Part shown: positions 30,216-37,405 of the stretch, one piece after another
Layout: each line of letters begins with the position of its first letter
How positions within the stretch are numbered: the stretch's first letter is position 1
Assembly: GCF_014132155.1 (NCBI RefSeq)
Contig: NZ_BLJQ01000002.1
Location: forward strand, 562,845-626,844
Origin: Gluconobacter sp. Gdi
GTDB lineage: Bacteria; Pseudomonadota; Alphaproteobacteria; Acetobacterales; Acetobacteraceae
Direction: 5' to 3'
DNA length: 64,000 nt
Position numbers and translations under genes: made by a program
The notes under the pieces: generated by a model
The model's input: the letters and a program-made list of their open reading frames with translations, nothing else
Database searches by the model: none
Told to the model about the DNA's origin: nothing

Positions 30216-31112
30216 TTATACATTTATATTATTTTGAAAAAAAACTACTGCATCTGAAATTATTTTTTTTGAATCTCGTCTCCAATACACGCCAACATTA
30301 AGTGTTATATCGGATTTTTCCTCAAGAATCTTACTGTCTTGGAAATTTATCGATTTTAAGTGAGATATTGTAGACATTCCAATAGTTTCCGGACTGTTCA
30401 TCAAACTGGCTGTTCCTAGGATTGAATTTAATTCAATAAGATTTTCAGGGGTTTTTAATCCGTTATATTCAAGAATAGAATCAAACCTATCACGCATCGC
30501 AGTCCCTCGGACTGGCAAAATCCATACTTTTTCTTGAAGGGCATGCCAATTTTCAATAATTTCTTTAATAGAATAAGCTCCATTTCTATCAATTATAACG
30601 CAATTGTCGCTGACAATATGTTTATAGTTGATTCTATCATCTATTATTTCGTTATAGGCACTAGCAAATATTATATCTGTCTTTCCCTTCGATAAAGAAG
30701 AAAATAATTCATCTCGAGATCCATAATTAACTGTAAAATTTATATTTTTTGATGAAGCAATTGACAGCACACATTTCATCATCTCTGAAACAATAGAATT
30801 CGATTGGAAGGATATATTGATATAGCTCTTCTTGTTGTATATACTATCTATATCTAGGATCATCCTATCTATTTCTTTTTCGATCAAGATGCTTGATTCG
30901 ACAACTCTTTTAGCAATTTCATTCGGAACCAACCCATGTATGGTTCTTGAGAAAAGAGTTTTTCCTATAATTTTTTCAAATTCTATACAGGTCTTAGAGA
31001 TGGCAGCCGGGGTTAAAGACATGACTTCTGAGGTCTTTTTAAGATTTTGTATATTATATATATTTTTTATAACGTTTAAATGCCTTATTTTTATGTTTGA
31101 TTTTCTATTCAT
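30216..31112 (-). CDS. AT-rich LysR-type regulator
   Basis: A 298-residue protein with an N-terminal winged-helix domain of LysR type (IKIRHLNVIKNIYNIQNLKKTSEVMS, TPAAISKTCIEFEKIIG) and a weakly conserved effector domain. Base composition is extremely AT-rich (many Ile, Asn, Lys), very unlike the surrounding genes, so it was probably acquired. It lies between an IS remnant and an integrase fragment. No neighbouring operon for it to control remains, so its target is unknown. Confidence 0.8.
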   Translation of the reverse strand: MNRKSNIKIRHLNVIKNIYNIQNLKKTSEVMSLTPAAISKTCIEFEKIIGKTLFSRTIHGLVPNEIAKRVVESSILIEKEIDRMILDIDSIYNKKSYINISFQSNSIVSEMMKCVLSIASSKNINFTVNYGSRDELFSSLSKGKTDIIFASAYNEIIDDRINYKHIVSDNCVIIDRNGAYSIKEIIENWHALQEKVWILPVRGTAMRDRFDSILEYNGLKTPENLIELNSILGTASLMNSPETIGMSTISHLKSINFQDSKILEEKSDITLNVGVYWRRDSKKIISDAVVFFQNNINV

Positions 31113-31692: not shown

Positions 31693-32346
31693 TCAGGCTG
31701 ATTTACCTTTGTCGGAGTGTAGCGGGAAGAGAAAACAGTAAGCCCCCGAAACCTTCCGGCCTTCTACCTTCGATGATAGAGACCGGAGCATCTCAAAAAC
31801 AGCTCTATTGTCGGCTGAATGGCTTTGCGTGTTTCTGTCCGGCACCCTGCTCTGATGGCGCCTCTTCGTCCTGGGTTCTCGCGGATTTTCTTGCTTGTGA
31901 ATGATGTCGGTCAGAGCGTTGATTTCGGGGCCAATCTTCTCAAGAACGCTGGAAACCCGCTGATGGTCTTCCATTCGTGCCAGAAGATGCTCGGCATTCA
32001 TGGTTTTGTAGCGAGCCTTCAGAGCCTGAATCTCACTGTCGTAGGTCTCGACAATGGACTGGAACAGGTCCTGCTGGACAGGATGGAGGTCAGATGTGGC
32101 CAGAGCCTCCTGAAAGGTCTCAACCGCTTTGTTGAGCGAGGATGTTTCTTCCGATGAAGACATGGCCAGACTGATGCACTCGAAAAGCTGAGAGGTCAGT
32201 CCATACATGGCACAGGCACGGGTTCTGGCAAGATTTCTGTCGAGGGTTTCTAGAGAGTGCCAGATTTCCCGTTTCCCCAGAGCAGGCCGAAAACGAACGG
32301 GAATCCCGCGTCTGAAATGGAAACCGGATTGCAGACGAATCAGCAC
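31693..32346 (-). pseudogene. N-terminal fragment of a tyrosine-type integrase
   Basis: The first 55 residues (SGFHFRRGIPVRFRPALG, then REIWHSLETLDRNLARTRA) match the DUF6538 head of phage-type tyrosine integrases. The rest is a helical stretch, ending at 217 residues without the catalytic R-H-R-Y core, so it is truncated. The gene starts 95 bases from the 3' end of tRNA-Leu and points away from it, the usual place and layout for an island integrase. Confidence 0.6.
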
Positions 32347-32533: not shown

Positions 32534-33217
32534 TCATGCTGCTCGCAGCAGGGCGGTCCCGTTTTGGCTCAGCCAGCGCTCTGCTGCAAGACGTCCTGTG
32601 CGTCCATTTGTGCAAAATCTGTCAACTAAGCCCCAAAAAGCAGCGCTGTGGTCAAAATGTTGAAGATGAGCGAGTTCATGGATCACGACGTAATCTCGAA
32701 TTTCCGGCGGCGTCATGACCAGTCGCCAGCTCAACATGATGCGTCCTTTTCGGGTGCAGCTGCCCCATCGAGACCGGACTTCACGCAAATCGATACGGGA
32801 CGGCACAAGACCCATTCTTTTACCGTGAAGTGCAACAGCCTTTGAGAGGCGCTCTTTGGCCAGGCTGTGAAGAAAGTCTCTTACGCGACGTTCGGTATGA
32901 GCGGCATCTCCGCTGACATGAAGGCCATCTGAATCCAGCCATGTGCCGCGGCGGGCATCTGGCTCATGCAGAATGGGAACTGGCAATCCTTCGATCATGA
33001 CTTCGTGCCCGTCAGCCAGCACACGTTTTTCAGGCAGGGTAGCGAGAGATGACGTAATCCAGTCCATATGCTGATGGACGAAAGCAAGACCCTGCCGCTG
33101 GCTGATGCGCTGGGGCAGCGTAACAACAACGCTGCCGTCTTGAGCATCAATGCGGAGGGTCATGCGGCGTGCACGAGGCGAACGTCTCCATACGAGAGGG
33201 ACGGTCGGCGGAAGCAT
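32534..33217 (-). CDS. YgjP-type zinc metallopeptidase (DUF45)
   Basis: A 227-residue protein with the metallopeptidase site VIHELAHLQHFDHSAAFW (HELAH plus a downstream histidine) and the family block SRWGSCTRKGRIMLSWRL before it. The N-terminal half has the beta-strand YgjP start (RRSPRARRMTLRIDAQDG). It is the last gene of a five-gene minus-strand operon, four bases after the YcgN gene, and ends eight bases before tRNA-Leu. The substrate is unknown. Confidence 0.9.
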   Translation of the reverse strand: MLPPTVPLVWRRSPRARRMTLRIDAQDGSVVVTLPQRISQRQGLAFVHQHMDWITSSLATLPEKRVLADGHEVMIEGLPVPILHEPDARRGTWLDSDGLHVSGDAAHTERRVRDFLHSLAKERLSKAVALHGKRMGLVPSRIDLREVRSRWGSCTRKGRIMLSWRLVMTPPEIRDYVVIHELAHLQHFDHSAAFWGLVDRFCTNGRTGRLAAERWLSQNGTALLRAA

Positions 33218-33221
33218 GGGG

Positions 33222-33710
33222 TTAGCCGGAGCGTTTTCTGGAGATGCAGGCCGGAGCGTTTGCGGGCCATTCTCCTGGCCATGCGGCTATGTAGTTCTCC
33301 AGTGGACCCGCGCGGCGCTCGCTTACACAACGCCCTCCCGCAGAAGCGCCAGCCATCAGAACGCTGTCGCGTGTCCCGGAGCGCAGGGGATGCCATTCAG
33401 GCAAATCAAATCCGTCACGCAGCAATCGATAGGCGCAGCTTGGAGGAAGCCAGTCGATTTCGGCTAGCAGTTCAGGAGTTAATGTGACGCAGTCCGGCAC
33501 TTTACGATGGCGTTCTGGATAGTCTGTGCAACGGCAGGTCTGCGTGTCCAAAAGTCGGCACGCAACGGTCGTGTAGACGATCTCGTCCGTATCTTCGTCA
33601 CGGAGCTTGTTCAGGCAACAACGCCCACACCCATCACAAAGGGATTCCCATTGTTCGGACGTCATCTGATCTAGCGGCGTGGTCTGCCAGAAAGGAGAAA
33701 CTGAAGTCAT
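33222..33710 (-). CDS. YcgN-family cysteine-cluster protein
   Basis: A 162-residue protein from the ATG at 33710, which overlaps the permease stop (ATGA). It has an N-terminal cluster CDGCGRCC and further cysteines in VACRLLDTQTCRCTDYPERHRKVPDC, typical of the YcgN/YkgJ family, thought to bind iron-sulfur or zinc. A longer in-frame reading would run back into the permease gene and is unlikely. Translational coupling on both sides puts it in the ABC-like operon. Confidence 0.88.
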   Translation of the reverse strand: MTSVSPFWQTTPLDQMTSEQWESLCDGCGRCCLNKLRDEDTDEIVYTTVACRLLDTQTCRCTDYPERHRKVPDCVTLTPELLAEIDWLPPSCAYRLLRDGFDLPEWHPLRSGTRDSVLMAGASAGGRCVSERRAGPLENYIAAWPGEWPANAPACISRKRSG

Positions 33711-34138
33711 GGCCGATCCAGTATCACACAGCCGAGGGACAACAGAACCGCTATTGTCAGGGAAAGCAGGGAAGCAGGTAAAAGCAGAGGAAGCCAAATC
33801 AGTTTCAGGCGCGTCGTCAAATCCGCTCCCAGGCCGATTGCCGCACGCGTTGTCCCCATGGGGAGCCCAAGTAACGTTGCCCCAAACGGCATCATGATGG
33901 CTGGGGAAATCAGAATGCCTTGGACAAGGTCATAATGTCGGCCGACAAAGCTAAGGCCCGCGCGATGGAGTTCAGGAAGCGCAAAGGCGAGCGCCGGACC
34001 AGGCAGTAAAACCAGCAGGCCAAGAAGGCGCACGTGTCTGGCAGGCAAAAGACGCATCAGCAGTGTGCTGACGCCACAACCAAGGAGGAGACCAAGTATA
34101 ATGGCGGGCAGGTGAAGCCGCATGGAAATGGCCATCAT
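33707..34138 (-). CDS. Half-size ABC permease-like membrane protein
   Basis: A 143-residue protein with about four hydrophobic segments. The stretch PMGTTRAAIGLGADLTTRLK followed by LIWLPLLLPASL resembles the cytoplasmic EAA loop of PotB/PotC-type permeases, which couples to the ATPase. Normal permeases of the family are roughly twice as long. ATGA overlaps join it to both the binding-protein gene before it and the YcgN gene after it. It could be a reduced permease or a new membrane partner. Confidence 0.65.
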   Translation of the reverse strand: MMAISMRLHLPAIILGLLLGCGVSTLLMRLLPARHVRLLGLLVLLPGPALAFALPELHRAGLSFVGRHYDLVQGILISPAIMMPFGATLLGLPMGTTRAAIGLGADLTTRLKLIWLPLLLPASLLSLTIAVLLSLGCVILDRP

Positions 34139-35322
34139 GGCTTGCTGCTGCCGTACCAGTCCTGAAACTGCTGTTCCAGCTGATCGCCATATTTGGTCCA
34201 GAACGCATCATTGACGGACAGGGCAGTTCCTCTCGGATCCAGAACGCTTTCGGGCATGTCGTTCAGATGGGGAGACTGAGTATGCAACTGGGTCAGGGTT
34301 TTCTGTGCTGCGGTTTCAGGATTATTGGCCGGGATTGCCCAATAAAGTGCGGTGCTAAGAGTTTGATCTGGCTGCGCGACAAAAAGAGATGCTGCTGGTC
34401 CCGCTTTGACTTTCATGCTGACGCTGGAAATTTCTGTCATGGGGGCGCTGGTCATGAGCGCGCTGCTTTGCTCCATAATCCGGGCTGCATCAGCGGGTGT
34501 TTTCCACCACACAATATAAGGTCGAAGCAGATCCAGTTTGTGAAACGCCCGGCTGATCCCCGCTGGAGTTGAAAGCGCGGTATAAATGTCCCGGGAGTCT
34601 ATGCCATCTGCAAGCAGGGCAATTTCCAGCGTTGTTCGCGCACCAAGATAAAGACCGCGTCGTCCTGGATGACGCGCTACATCCCAGAAGTCTTTCCAGT
34701 TGGGGGCGGCAGGGAGGCGGGAGCGATCCCATGCAAGCGCCATGATTGTCTGGCCTCCGGGAAGGCCACATCCCGTAGTGCCTCCCAGAGGGTGAACCCA
34801 GCCTTTTTGGCACGCATCTGCAAGCTGGCTGCCATTTAGCAGGATAGCGGCCCAACTTGGGGTCGATGAATGAACGCCTGAATCCAGTGTTGTTTTTTGA
34901 CCGTCCCATTCAACCTGCTTCAGGGACTTGTCGCTGGTGATCAGAGCATTCGCAGTCACCGCGCCTTCAGGAATAGCCCAGCCCGGGGAAGGGGGAGCGG
35001 GTTTTGCTGTGCGACGATGTTTTGTGGAATGGCGCGCAGCCGCTCGTTTGTGTGCGTGTGCCGAGGCTTCTGATGGCGAGAAGACAGAGGCGACACTATG
35101 CCCGACATGAGAAAAGAAATCTCCAATGTCGTCTGACGAATGGACGCCGTTCGCAGATGTTGCGTGTGCATGCAGGTTGGCAGGCAACACCTGGATCGCA
35201 AGCAGACCCGTCAGAAGTGCTGCAGGGCGCATGATACGACCGAGACCCGCCCGGCATCGTGCCGGGAGCGTATGTCGCAGAAAGAAAGCGGGCCGGGTCA
35301 GAATGGTGTCCTCAATCAGCAT
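34135..35322 (-). CDS. Periplasmic binding protein, polyamine/iron-type (PotD-like)
   Basis: A 395-residue protein. A signal peptide begins at M31 (MRPAALLTGLLAIQVLPANLHAHA), so the true start may be 35232 rather than 35322. After the signal comes a basic linker rich in His, Arg and Lys (HAHKRAAARHSTKHRRTAK), then a bacterial type II binding-protein fold (PSWAAILLNGSQLADACQKGW, NWKDFWDVARHPGRRGLY, YWAIPANNPE). It follows the degenerate ATPase gene and overlaps the permease gene. The ligand is unknown. Confidence 0.75.
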   Translation of the reverse strand: MLIEDTILTRPAFFLRHTLPARCRAGLGRIMRPAALLTGLLAIQVLPANLHAHATSANGVHSSDDIGDFFSHVGHSVASVFSPSEASAHAHKRAAARHSTKHRRTAKPAPPSPGWAIPEGAVTANALITSDKSLKQVEWDGQKTTLDSGVHSSTPSWAAILLNGSQLADACQKGWVHPLGGTTGCGLPGGQTIMALAWDRSRLPAAPNWKDFWDVARHPGRRGLYLGARTTLEIALLADGIDSRDIYTALSTPAGISRAFHKLDLLRPYIVWWKTPADAARIMEQSSALMTSAPMTEISSVSMKVKAGPAASLFVAQPDQTLSTALYWAIPANNPETAAQKTLTQLHTQSPHLNDMPESVLDPRGTALSVNDAFWTKYGDQLEQQFQDWYGSSKP

Positions 35323-35364: not shown

Positions 35365-36522
35365 TTAATACAGGTCAGCACGAAGCGGAAAGGCCGTTGC
35401 GTGCCCGGCTGGCCAGGCAAGCTGAACGGCGGCTCCGGCTCGTGGCAGCTTTTGGGCTTGGAGGGGCGGCCGCCGGAGCTCAATCTCGGTGCCATCCGGG
35501 CAGCGCACCCGCATTCTGATATGATCGCCAAGATGAACGCTGTCCGTCAGTGTGCCGCGGACAGGTGGTGCTTCTTCATCGTCAAGGCCGAGAGATTGGC
35601 TGCCGAAAAAGGGCGAGATCCGATCCGGACGGACGCAGACCAGACAGGCATGACCCTCCTGCAGCGTATCGTCGGACGCGAGAGCTTCAACAATGCCACC
35701 GCATGCCAACTGCACGCGCGCGACGTCATCGGCAATGTCCAGAACCTGTCCGGTCAGGGCGTTGGCTTCACCAAAGAGTGTCGCTACACCAACGTCTGAT
35801 GGGCGATCATACAGTTCGGCTGCTGTTCCGCATTGAAGCAGAGCCTGTTCATCAAAGAGGGCAATCTGTCCTCCGGCACGTAGGGCGTCTTCTTTGCGCG
35901 TGACGCTTTGCAGCACACTGAGGTTTCGCGCTCGTGACAGTTTGGAGAGTAAGGAGGCGATGCGTTTGCCAGCCTGTATGTCCAGATTTGTGTACGGATT
36001 GTCGAGCAGCAGAATAGCGGGTGAGGTTACAAGTGCACGGGCCAGCATTGCACGGAATGTCTGCTCGGGATTGAGGTCCTGGGGGGAAAGATTTCCCAGT
36101 CCGTCCAGCCCCAGCAGGGACATCATGCGGCCTGCGGCAGCATCGGCTTCTGCACGGCTCTGTCCCTGAGCACGAAGCGCAAAAACAATGTTACTGCGCG
36201 TATCGAGGTGCGGAAACAGCGGATCGCGGGCACTGATCAGGACAATGCTGCGCTGTCCGGCGGGCCGGGATGTAACGTCCGTCTCCTGCACAAGCACGCG
36301 GCCGCCCATTGGGGGAGAAAAGCCCGCGATCAGGTCTAACAGGCCGGATAGCGCAGCCTGGTCTGTTCCATAGGCCGTAACTGTCTCGCCTTCAGAAACC
36401 GTCAGGTCGAACGCCTCACCCCGCAGGCCTGCCCGAAAAGCTTCAAGCCTGAGGGCGGGGGCAGACCGCGCTGCGGGGCGGCGGCGTGCTGGGGAAGGTG
36501 GGGCGCCGGGTGGGCGGGACAT
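35365..36522 (-). CDS. ABC ATPase homologue with degenerate catalytic motifs
   Basis: A 385-residue PotA-like protein with a C-terminal TOBE-type region (about 255-380). The fold is recognisable from LIAGFSPPMGGRVLVQETDVTS and DPLFPHLDTRSNIVFALR. Every catalytic motif is altered: the Walker A position reads GTDQAALSG (52-60) without GK[ST], the signature reads LNPEQ for LSGGQ, Walker B reads LLLDN (N175 for Glu), the Q-loop glutamine is missing, and the H-loop reads SVTRKED. ATP hydrolysis therefore looks impossible. The frame is intact and begins an intact operon, so it is not an ordinary pseudogene. Confidence 0.82.
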   Translation of the reverse strand: MSRPPGAPPSPARRRPAARSAPALRLEAFRAGLRGEAFDLTVSEGETVTAYGTDQAALSGLLDLIAGFSPPMGGRVLVQETDVTSRPAGQRSIVLISARDPLFPHLDTRSNIVFALRAQGQSRAEADAAAGRMMSLLGLDGLGNLSPQDLNPEQTFRAMLARALVTSPAILLLDNPYTNLDIQAGKRIASLLSKLSRARNLSVLQSVTRKEDALRAGGQIALFDEQALLQCGTAAELYDRPSDVGVATLFGEANALTGQVLDIADDVARVQLACGGIVEALASDDTLQEGHACLVCVRPDRISPFFGSQSLGLDDEEAPPVRGTLTDSVHLGDHIRMRVRCPDGTEIELRRPPLQAQKLPRAGAAVQLAWPAGHATAFPLRADLY

Positions 36523-36970: not shown

Positions 36971-37405
36971 ATGAAGCCCATTGAACTCGGTCAGGAAGTC
37001 CTTTCCGCCCAAGGCCAGATTCTCTCCCGCTCTGCCATGCGAATCGGCCGGAGAGTTGCGTGCGCGCTTGTTGCCGTTGTCTTCCTGCTGTTCGCAGCCA
37101 TCTCTTTTCATGGCTTCCTGTGGGCGTTCTTTATCAGTGTGGCGGGTCTGAGCTACGTAAAAGCCAGCCTGTGCGTCATTGGTATTGATCTGTTCTTCGT
37201 GCTGATTTTTGCAGTTCTTGCAGCATGGTCGATTCCCGACGTTGTCGAGATCGAGGCGCGTATTCGTCGTGATCGCAAGTTGGTCGAACTGAAGCAGTCT
37301 GTTGCCATTACGGCGGTTACTGGCCTTCTGCTCGGCCCGATTGGCCGTTTTACGGGCAAAAGCTTTCTGTCCATTCTGAAGAGTTTCTTCAGTCATTCCA
37401 AATAA
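36971..37405 (+). CDS. Phage-holin-X-like membrane protein
   Basis: A 144-residue inner-membrane protein with two close hydrophobic segments (ACALVAVVFLLFAAISFHGF and SLCVIGIDLFFVLIFAVLAAW) and charged ends, typical of the holin-superfamily proteins found with DUF883. Despite the name there is no phage nearby. The two genes probably form one unit acting on the envelope. Confidence 0.75.
   Translation: MKPIELGQEVLSAQGQILSRSAMRIGRRVACALVAVVFLLFAAISFHGFLWAFFISVAGLSYVKASLCVIGIDLFFVLIFAVLAAWSIPDVVEIEARIRRDRKLVELKQSVAITAVTGLLLGPIGRFTGKSFLSILKSFFSHSK

Follow-up and report, generated by a model that had tools for sequence, protein, structure and literature searches.

The stretch of DNA that we analysed, here called the window, comprises 64,000 nucleotides from Gluconobacter sp. 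Gdi and contains an open reading frame of 385 codons, which runs on the minus strand from 36522 to 35365 with an ATG start and a TAA stop and encodes a PotA-like ABC ATPase that has lost its catalytic motif residues (Table 1). We refer to its product as the dead ATPase. A plus-strand gene at 35365-36522 was rejected because of stops in the plus-strand frame read, and shorter plus-strand ORFs (up to 219 amino acids) overlap the interval. Downstream of the ATPase gene lie genes for a solute-binding protein and for a small permease-like protein, here called the mini-permease, whose gene shares its first 4 bases with the stop end of the binding-protein gene; genes of the YcgN and YgjP types come next, and two divergent genes, one encoding a protein of 94 amino acids that we take to be DUF883-like and the other TM144, flank the ATPase gene on its opposite side. 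Beyond YgjP, at 31693-32346, an ORF of 217 amino acids resembles by eye the N-terminus of a site-specific integrase, and longer integrase-like ORFs (approximately 445-544 amino acids, by eye) occupy the same place in other genera (L057, L065, L069, L070 and L081). Farther along, a LysR-regulator-like ORF (30216-31112, by eye) has more Ile, Asn and Lys than is usual in its genome and was perhaps acquired.

Table 1. Genes and motifs of the dead-ATPase locus, in positions of the window.
Feature	Position	Strand	Basis and remarks
Dead PotA-like ABC ATPase (pseudo-NBD and TOBE_2), 385 aa	35365..36522	-	ORF list, translation, Pfam, NCBIfam, alignment
Degenerate P-loop, residues 52-60, GTDQAALSG	36343..36369	-	Lys lost in 38/38 dead copies
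Q-loop/coupling-helix groove, residues 97-106, SARDPLFPHL	36205..36234	-	Gln lost, xRDPLFxHL conserved
Degenerate signature, residues 150-155, LNPEQT replacing LSGGQ	36058..36075	-	Translation, alignment
Walker B remnant, residues 171-176, LLLDNP	35995..36012	-	Asp kept, catalytic Glu lost
H-loop region, residues 204-210	35893..35913	-	Switch His lost
TOBE_2 domain, residues 295-378, within C-terminal region 241-385	35389..35640	-	Pfam, conservation comparison
Solute-binding protein (SBP_bac_8; GABA/polyamine type), putatively secreted	34135..35322	-	Pfam, profile matches; likelier start ATG 35232
Mini-permease, 143 aa, four clear hydrophobic segments, PotC 62-197 remnant	33707..34138	-	Profile search
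EAA-type coupling loop of mini-permease, residues 98-120, RAAIGLGADLTTRLKLIWLPLLL	33779..33847	-	Most conserved stretch of the protein
YcgN-family cysteine-cluster protein	33222..33710	-	Operon neighbour; likely ATG 33710, overlapping mini-permease stop
YgjP-like metallopeptidase-domain protein	32534..33217	-	Pfam; operon neighbour
Presumed DUF883-like protein, divergent, 94 aa	36603..36887	+	Syntenic anchor; no Pfam match over cut-off
TM144, divergent, 144 aa, probably membrane protein	36971..37405	+	Second syntenic anchor

The initial annotation described the ATPase as a PotA-like protein with a TOBE-type tail, and profile searches bear this out. The protein scored 46.1 bits with the Pfam model ABC_tran (PF00005; cut-off 25), and its C-terminal part scored 59.4 bits with TOBE_2 (cut-off 21), a trait of PotA/MalK-type ATPases. 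The best NCBIfam models were those for PhnT and PotA, both of which remained far under their cut-offs (PhnT equivalog TIGR03258, 160.2 versus 499.15; PotA equivalogs NF006987, 137.7 versus 482, and TIGR01187, 132.6 versus 355.6). Because the protein scores over the ABC_tran cut-off, annotation by that model would name it a transporter ATPase.

It had also been claimed that all catalytic motifs of this protein are changed. The claim stood for Walker A, the Q-loop, which reads VLISARDPLFPHL, the signature (LNPEQ), the catalytic glutamate and the H-loop (SVTRKED): the protein lacks a GxxGxGK[ST] sequence with its P-loop lysine, the Q-loop glutamine, the SGG of LSGGQ and the switch histidine, and carries N175 instead of the catalytic glutamate. 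However, it did not hold for all of Walker B (LLLDN), which still contains the aspartate D174; the D-loop aspartate D181 is kept as well. Among 38 aligned dead orthologues, the Walker A lysine, the Walker B glutamate and the SGG are each lost in every copy, the Q-loop glutamine and the switch histidine are each lost in 37, and the Walker B aspartate is retained in 24. This alignment leaves out L021, which is identical to L055 and L068 and reaches a contig end. The 22 live rows aligned beside the dead ones retain all five motif residues, and since they were picked for intact motifs they serve to check the columns and are no independent control. L160 (genus g78), taken among the presumed live relatives, proved fully dead and was set aside together with L088, L094 and L146. 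In an alignment of 48 loci, an intact Walker A was found in none of the 46 that cover the P-loop (the others being L012 and L035), which indicates that close orthologues share the loss. As to whether the altered residues are themselves conserved, the answer was divided: P-loop columns 53-57 are nearly free (entropy approximately 3 bits) and at G52, L58 and S59 a single residue prevails at 0.67-0.70, whereas newly fixed residues occur in the Q-loop groove, in which SxRDPLFxHL is strongly conserved among dead copies, and in the C-terminal domain.

These losses bear on two ways in which the domain might still work with a nucleotide. In one, the dead ATPase would pair with a live NBD from another locus and form the degenerate side of a heterodimer. 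Dead NBDs do occur in asymmetric ABC transporters in which one site remains, and degenerate-site heterodimers such as PatAB, TM287/288 and CFTR, in which each dimer retains one or more consensus ATP sites, likewise have NBDs that lack catalytic residues yet are under selection. The Gluconobacter sp. Gdi genome offers candidate partners, with 59 ABC_tran matches including the dead ATPase and one other that carries TOBE_2. However, Walker A and the signature are both lost, so that no composite ATP site would be complete even with a live partner, and in this the dead system departs from those heterodimers. Furthermore, the other TOBE_2 ATPase of the genome adjoins its own permeases, and the dead member was the only one found at E<=1e-50 in 15 of 18 Gluconobacter genomes, a weak argument, given that the search also missed the second TOBE_2 ATPase of this genome. 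We disfavour such a partnership as highly improbable. Alternatively, the NBD could bind a nucleotide or other small molecule in a non-canonical manner and act as a ligand-gated switch. The Walker B aspartate in the 24 copies above is in keeping with this, as are eight intermediate copies that keep the Walker A lysine after the signature and switch histidine broke, as would be expected had binding persisted longer than hydrolysis, but the loss of the P-loop lysine from all 38 dead copies, along with most of the glycines, and the near freedom of columns 53-57 make it quite improbable.

We also examined the partners of the dead ATPase for the traits of a type I importer. The binding protein scored 48.8 bits with SBP_bac_8 (Pfam cut-off 27), its profile matches 4i1d and 4eq7 are GABA/polyamine types, and its hydrophobic N-terminus makes secretion putative, so that by sequence the periplasmic solute-binding protein of such an importer is present. 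A linker rich in His, Arg and Lys, strongest around Gluconobacter, separates the hydrophobic N-terminus from the core; it is frequent in binding proteins of dead operons and absent from the live ones looked at. Metal sensing was considered because of this His-rich linker, the residues C296 and H330 of the dead ATPase, and the neighbours YcgN, with its cysteine cluster, and YgjP, which together might hint at metal. The first lobe of the binding protein is shortened in the Gluconobacter group, and ligand binding may for this reason be altered or lost.

Where a type I importer has two six-helix permeases, the dead operon has the single mini-permease. Its profile aligned to residues 62-197 of the 264 of Escherichia coli PotC in 8y5f_C (E 1.5e-12) and to residues 58-193 in 8y5g_C (E 1.3e-12), and hhalign matched it, with a probability of 91, to one full-length permease from a live operon in Acetobacteraceae. 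The Pfam model BPD_transp_1 was matched at E<=0.1 by six of 27 mini-permeases (best 0.00027) and not by that of the window; one mini-permease matched Pfam CopD (E 0.00011) better than any matched BPD_transp_1, which we take for a chance likeness of membrane segments. In genome searches with the mini-permease profile, mini-permeases scored at least 62 bits, and the other frames among the matches listed, all longer and presumably encoding full permeases, scored at most 52 bits. Most of the best-conserved columns of the mini-permease sit in the coupling loop, and the invariant or nearly invariant columns L103, G104, W115 and P117 all lie in its EAA loop, which agrees with a retained coupling loop. 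In the available part of a study of E. coli PotABCD, R157 belongs to the coupling helix of PotC, and Y219 and K223 of the gate, along with the scoop loop, come later in the sequence (PMC11414716). By that numbering, R157 falls inside the PotC 62-197 segment matched by the mini-permease, and Y219, K223 and the scoop loop fall outside it (PMC11414716). The coupling loop is thus present in the mini-permease, and the gate, the scoop loop and, judged by position, the first and last helices are missing from it.

The reduced permease can be read in terms of transport without ATP, in which the binding protein and mini-permease would form a TRAP-like secondary carrier or channel and the dead NBD would be a structural clamp. 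TRAP transporters and sensor binding proteins combine a periplasmic binding protein with membrane partners and lack an ABC motor, and TRAP binding proteins that feed non-ATPase carriers provide a precedent; all three parts of the dead system are retained and selected, and the binding protein has a solute-binding fold according to its profile matches. TRAP and sensor systems use unrelated membrane proteins, whereas the dead system retains an ABC skeleton. Furthermore, a mini-permease without both PotC ends, the gate residues and the scoop loop, with its best-conserved columns mostly in the coupling loop, argues against a translocation path, as does its absence where the binding protein persists alone (see below), and we consider transport of this type unlikely.

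We next considered how widely the dead ATPase occurs. An orthologue was found in all 25 Gluconobacter genomes searched (the genome itself and 24 genus-mates), and 237 of 299 genomes of the family matched at E<=1e-30, a count in which dead and live relatives are mixed. Using a dead-family profile on 200 genomes of the order, we found that, among the matches listed, dead copies scored at least 382 bits and the next match 335, and that partly dead copies scored approximately 280 bits, so that the score alone fails to part them from live ones. Fully dead members of the main clade were present in at least 18 of the 102 sampled genera, a minimum to which weaker dead copies may add. Spread beyond the order was sought and none was seen: none of 16 non-genus genomes of the class matched the ATPase at E<=1e-40, and among 385 genomes of the class, with at most five candidates scored in each, the dead-family profile gave two matches at E<=1e-85, both from Acetobacteraceae. 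Of the 200 genomes from the order, 19, each 1.9-2.5 Mb in size, gave no match at E<=1e-50; some small genomes retain the dead ATPase, such as G247 (1.7 Mb). In a tree, the 22 main dead sequences sampled formed one clade with a support of 100, which recurred as the same split of dead and other sequences (support 100) in a tree of 65 rows; the intermediates nested outside it in an order whose support is uneven (94, 50 and 88, overall 50-94), and the partly dead copies L180 and L181 arose separately from the main dead clade. A second PotA-like ATPase degeneration, apparently independent in the tree, occupies the same place in L199 and L200 (genera g53 and g41), and the dead-family profile did not find a binding protein beside the ATPase in these two loci.

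The three genes travel together. The dead ATPase and the mini-permease co-occur in 52 of 53 genomes, a count from genome lists compiled by eye among the matches listed with G110, G041 and G165 added, and the one exception lies at a contig end. The recurrent order is TM144 and DUF883, then, divergently, ATPase, binding protein, mini-permease, YcgN and YgjP. L055-L094 include 32 loci of the dead type, and of these tblastn found TM144 in 32, YcgN in 30, YgjP in 29 and DUF883 in 27, and iterated profile searches found the binding protein and the mini-permease in 31 each; L068, the locus missed, ends at a contig end. When the longest possible starts are used, the binding-protein stop and the mini-permease start are at most 32 bases apart in 24 of 31 loci.

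The initial annotation proposed that the motif-less ATPase is maintained by selection, on the grounds that 385 codons hold no stop. A simple simulation of neutral change in the dead ATPase gene gave means of 6.4 stops at 0.3 and 11.9 at 0.75 substitutions per site; none of 500 replicates was free of stops at either distance, and 8.4% were at 0.1. The copy of G. cerinus, to which the genome of the window is close and whose protein is 95% identical, stands at a dS of 0.75 and has zero internal stops, and the open frame is beyond chance by this measure. The frame is open in 47 of 48 loci, the remaining locus lying at a contig end; single internal stops also occur in G049 (contig end) and G255. 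Of 14 pairs of ATPase genes compared by the Nei-Gojobori method, two had saturated dS; the other 12, eight of them with dS below 1, gave a dN/dS of 0.039-0.107, which is not neutral. Against G. cerinus, G. thailandicus and G. frateurii, the ATPase had a dN/dS of 0.039-0.075, the binding protein one of 0.068-0.101 and the mini-permease one of 0.062-0.080, with lower values for YcgN and TM144 (0.010-0.048 where measurable) and higher ones for YgjP (0.10-0.14). Within the genus, the motif regions of the ATPase and the rest of the protein had the same dN/dS (0.066), and the NBD had 0.078 as compared with 0.043 in the C-terminus. A recent pseudogene is rejected by dN/dS, the open frames and the stop simulation. 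Taken together with close orthologues that lack intact Walker motifs, these values make it well supported that the dead ATPase is a selected pseudo-ATPase.

The same syntenic place holds copies in several states. Using the DUF883 gene as an anchor in 60 chosen genomes, we obtained a match in 42, and among the 30 best anchored loci an ATPase match lay nearby in 10 and none in 20. Three of the anchored ATPases are fully live (L175, L189 and L192), L164 is dead and already counted, L176 is a fragment, and five (L165, L169, L178, L180 and L181) are partly dead, to which other searches added L088, L094 and L146. All eight of these intermediates keep the Walker A lysine, have a broken signature and lack the switch histidine; the Q-loop glutamine is lost in six and kept in L094 and L165, the Walker B glutamate is kept in four (L094, L146, L169 and L178), and the L178 gene is split across frames. 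The order of loss is testable in these copies, with signature and switch histidine broken and Walker A going last. In eight further anchored regions, a binding protein without ATPase or mini-permease occurs in four (L205, L206, L208 and L209; genera g57, g116, g86 and g77), and all three genes are gone from the other four (L207 and L210-L212), including L207 (g82), in which YcgN and YgjP adjoin the anchor. In a binding-protein tree, L208 and L209 fall inside the dead clade (support 53-65), L205 does so with a support of 30, and L206 groups with the intermediate L094 (support 91). Behind the binding protein of the partly dead L194 the profile matched a mini-permease-like frame (domain E 1.4e-4), and inspection by eye alone suggests such frames in L094 and L202; beside the live PotA-like ATPases of this place in L195, L196 and L197, no such permease was found nearby, nor was a binding protein beside that of L196. 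Orthologues with intact motifs had been named in advance as a point against selection for a non-hydrolytic role. Those of distant genera in the same place do carry intact or partly intact motifs and close orthologues do not, which dates the loss and leaves the reading of selection unrefuted.

This series, in which the locus is live, half-dead, dead, reduced to a binding protein or gone, could also result from slow erosion, in which a dispensable importer is lost stepwise and persists as a long-lived fossil with residual constraint. Since the locus shrinks visibly in several lineages, erosion deserves weight. The 19 genomes of the order without a match are consistent with it, as is L145 (G165, a 2.0 Mb genome), in which the ATPase and binding-protein genes are broken over several frames and that of the mini-permease is open, as a result of real decay or of sequencing error. 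However, dN/dS values of 0.04-0.11 in all three genes, the open ATPase frames, residues newly fixed in dead copies and a conservation pattern repeated across five dead groups all argue against erosion. The low dN/dS and the new fixed residues suggest that the locus is in use where it is intact, and we judge erosion to be an improbable account.

The conservation pattern just mentioned concerns where constraint lies within the ATPase. The ratio of C-terminal to NBD identity was 0.53-0.74 in four live groups (two to eight sequences each), 1.17-1.29 in five dead groups (four to eight each) and 1.21 in an intermediate pair. Because C-terminal identity was 0.59-0.66 in dead as compared with 0.36-0.61 in live groups, this flip is mainly a looser NBD. 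A comparison by region, which mixes live paralogues and for that reason was complemented by the within-group ratios, placed the largest drop of relative conservation in the P-loop, D-loop, signature and H-loop, near constancy in the Q-loop groove and a rise in TOBE. When L002 was also left out, the residues fixed in dead copies and rare in live ones included P101 of the groove and, within TOBE, C296, D300, F306, H330 and R340, of which F306 corresponds to a gap in live copies.

Based on a coupling interface that is kept on both sides, a C-terminal region under selection and the lack of any complete ATP site, we favour, with a probability of roughly 0.45, a reading in which an importer was converted within Acetobacteraceae to an ATP-independent membrane sensor or scaffold with a pseudo-ATPase. 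The function of such a complex is probably to sense or retain something and not to pump; the binding protein would dock on a mini-permease dimer, its ligand state would be relayed by the EAA loop into the groove of an NBD dimer free of nucleotide, the TOBE region at the C-terminus would serve as an output surface for a cytosolic partner or a ligand, and no substrate would be pumped. We infer for the dead ATPase the role of a regulator, a scaffold or a partner of the mini-permease, as had been proposed from its open frame. This sensor or scaffold reading is supported by the dead NBD, binding protein and half-size PotC that are kept syntenic under purifying selection, and the binding protein found alone in four of the eight further regions fits a role apart from transport. 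Other findings count against it: the first lobe of the binding protein is shortened, the flip in conservation is mainly due to the looser NBD, the neighbours YcgN, DUF883 and TM144 mostly evolve under tighter constraint than the three genes, the motif regions of the ATPase as a whole are within Gluconobacter no less constrained than the rest, no permease gene was found beside the three live ATPases of the place, and slow erosion is also compatible with the stepwise loss, the binding proteins left alone and the emptied loci.

Known systems resemble this locus in part. E. coli PotABCD (PDB 8y5f-8y5i) has a homologous ATPase with a C-terminal regulatory domain, a homologous permease and a more distantly homologous binding protein, and its coupling loop and groove are retained in the dead system, which differs in that it lacks the ATP-site residues and conserves its C-terminal region better than its NBD. 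Pseudokinases and other pseudoenzymes resemble it in their catalytically dead folds under purifying selection and in a likely regulatory or scaffold role, and the dead system differs from them in that a whole ABC importer is affected. PotABCD imports spermidine, and its PotB and PotC have six helices each according to the available part of its description (PMC11414716), in contrast to the one half-size permease of the dead system with its approximately four hydrophobic segments and no scoop loop or gate. A keyword search of the open-access literature yielded, among the matches listed, neither this locus nor a conserved importer with a dead NBD as its sole one, and the accessible part of a paper on a Gluconobacter oxydans knockout collection held no data on the dead ATPase gene (PMC12041372). 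It is possible, though doubtful, that the locus encodes a new ABC-derived transmembrane signalling complex, composed of a binding protein, a half-size permease, a nucleotide-free NBD dimer and a TOBE effector, in which catalysis was lost stepwise within one family and the intermediates survive.

An ABC importer that cannot hydrolyse ATP is regarded as useless. Here, a whole clade retains an importer ATPase under strong selection after catalytic loss, with the permease reduced in step, which opens the question of what uses other than pumping an ABC transporter may have.
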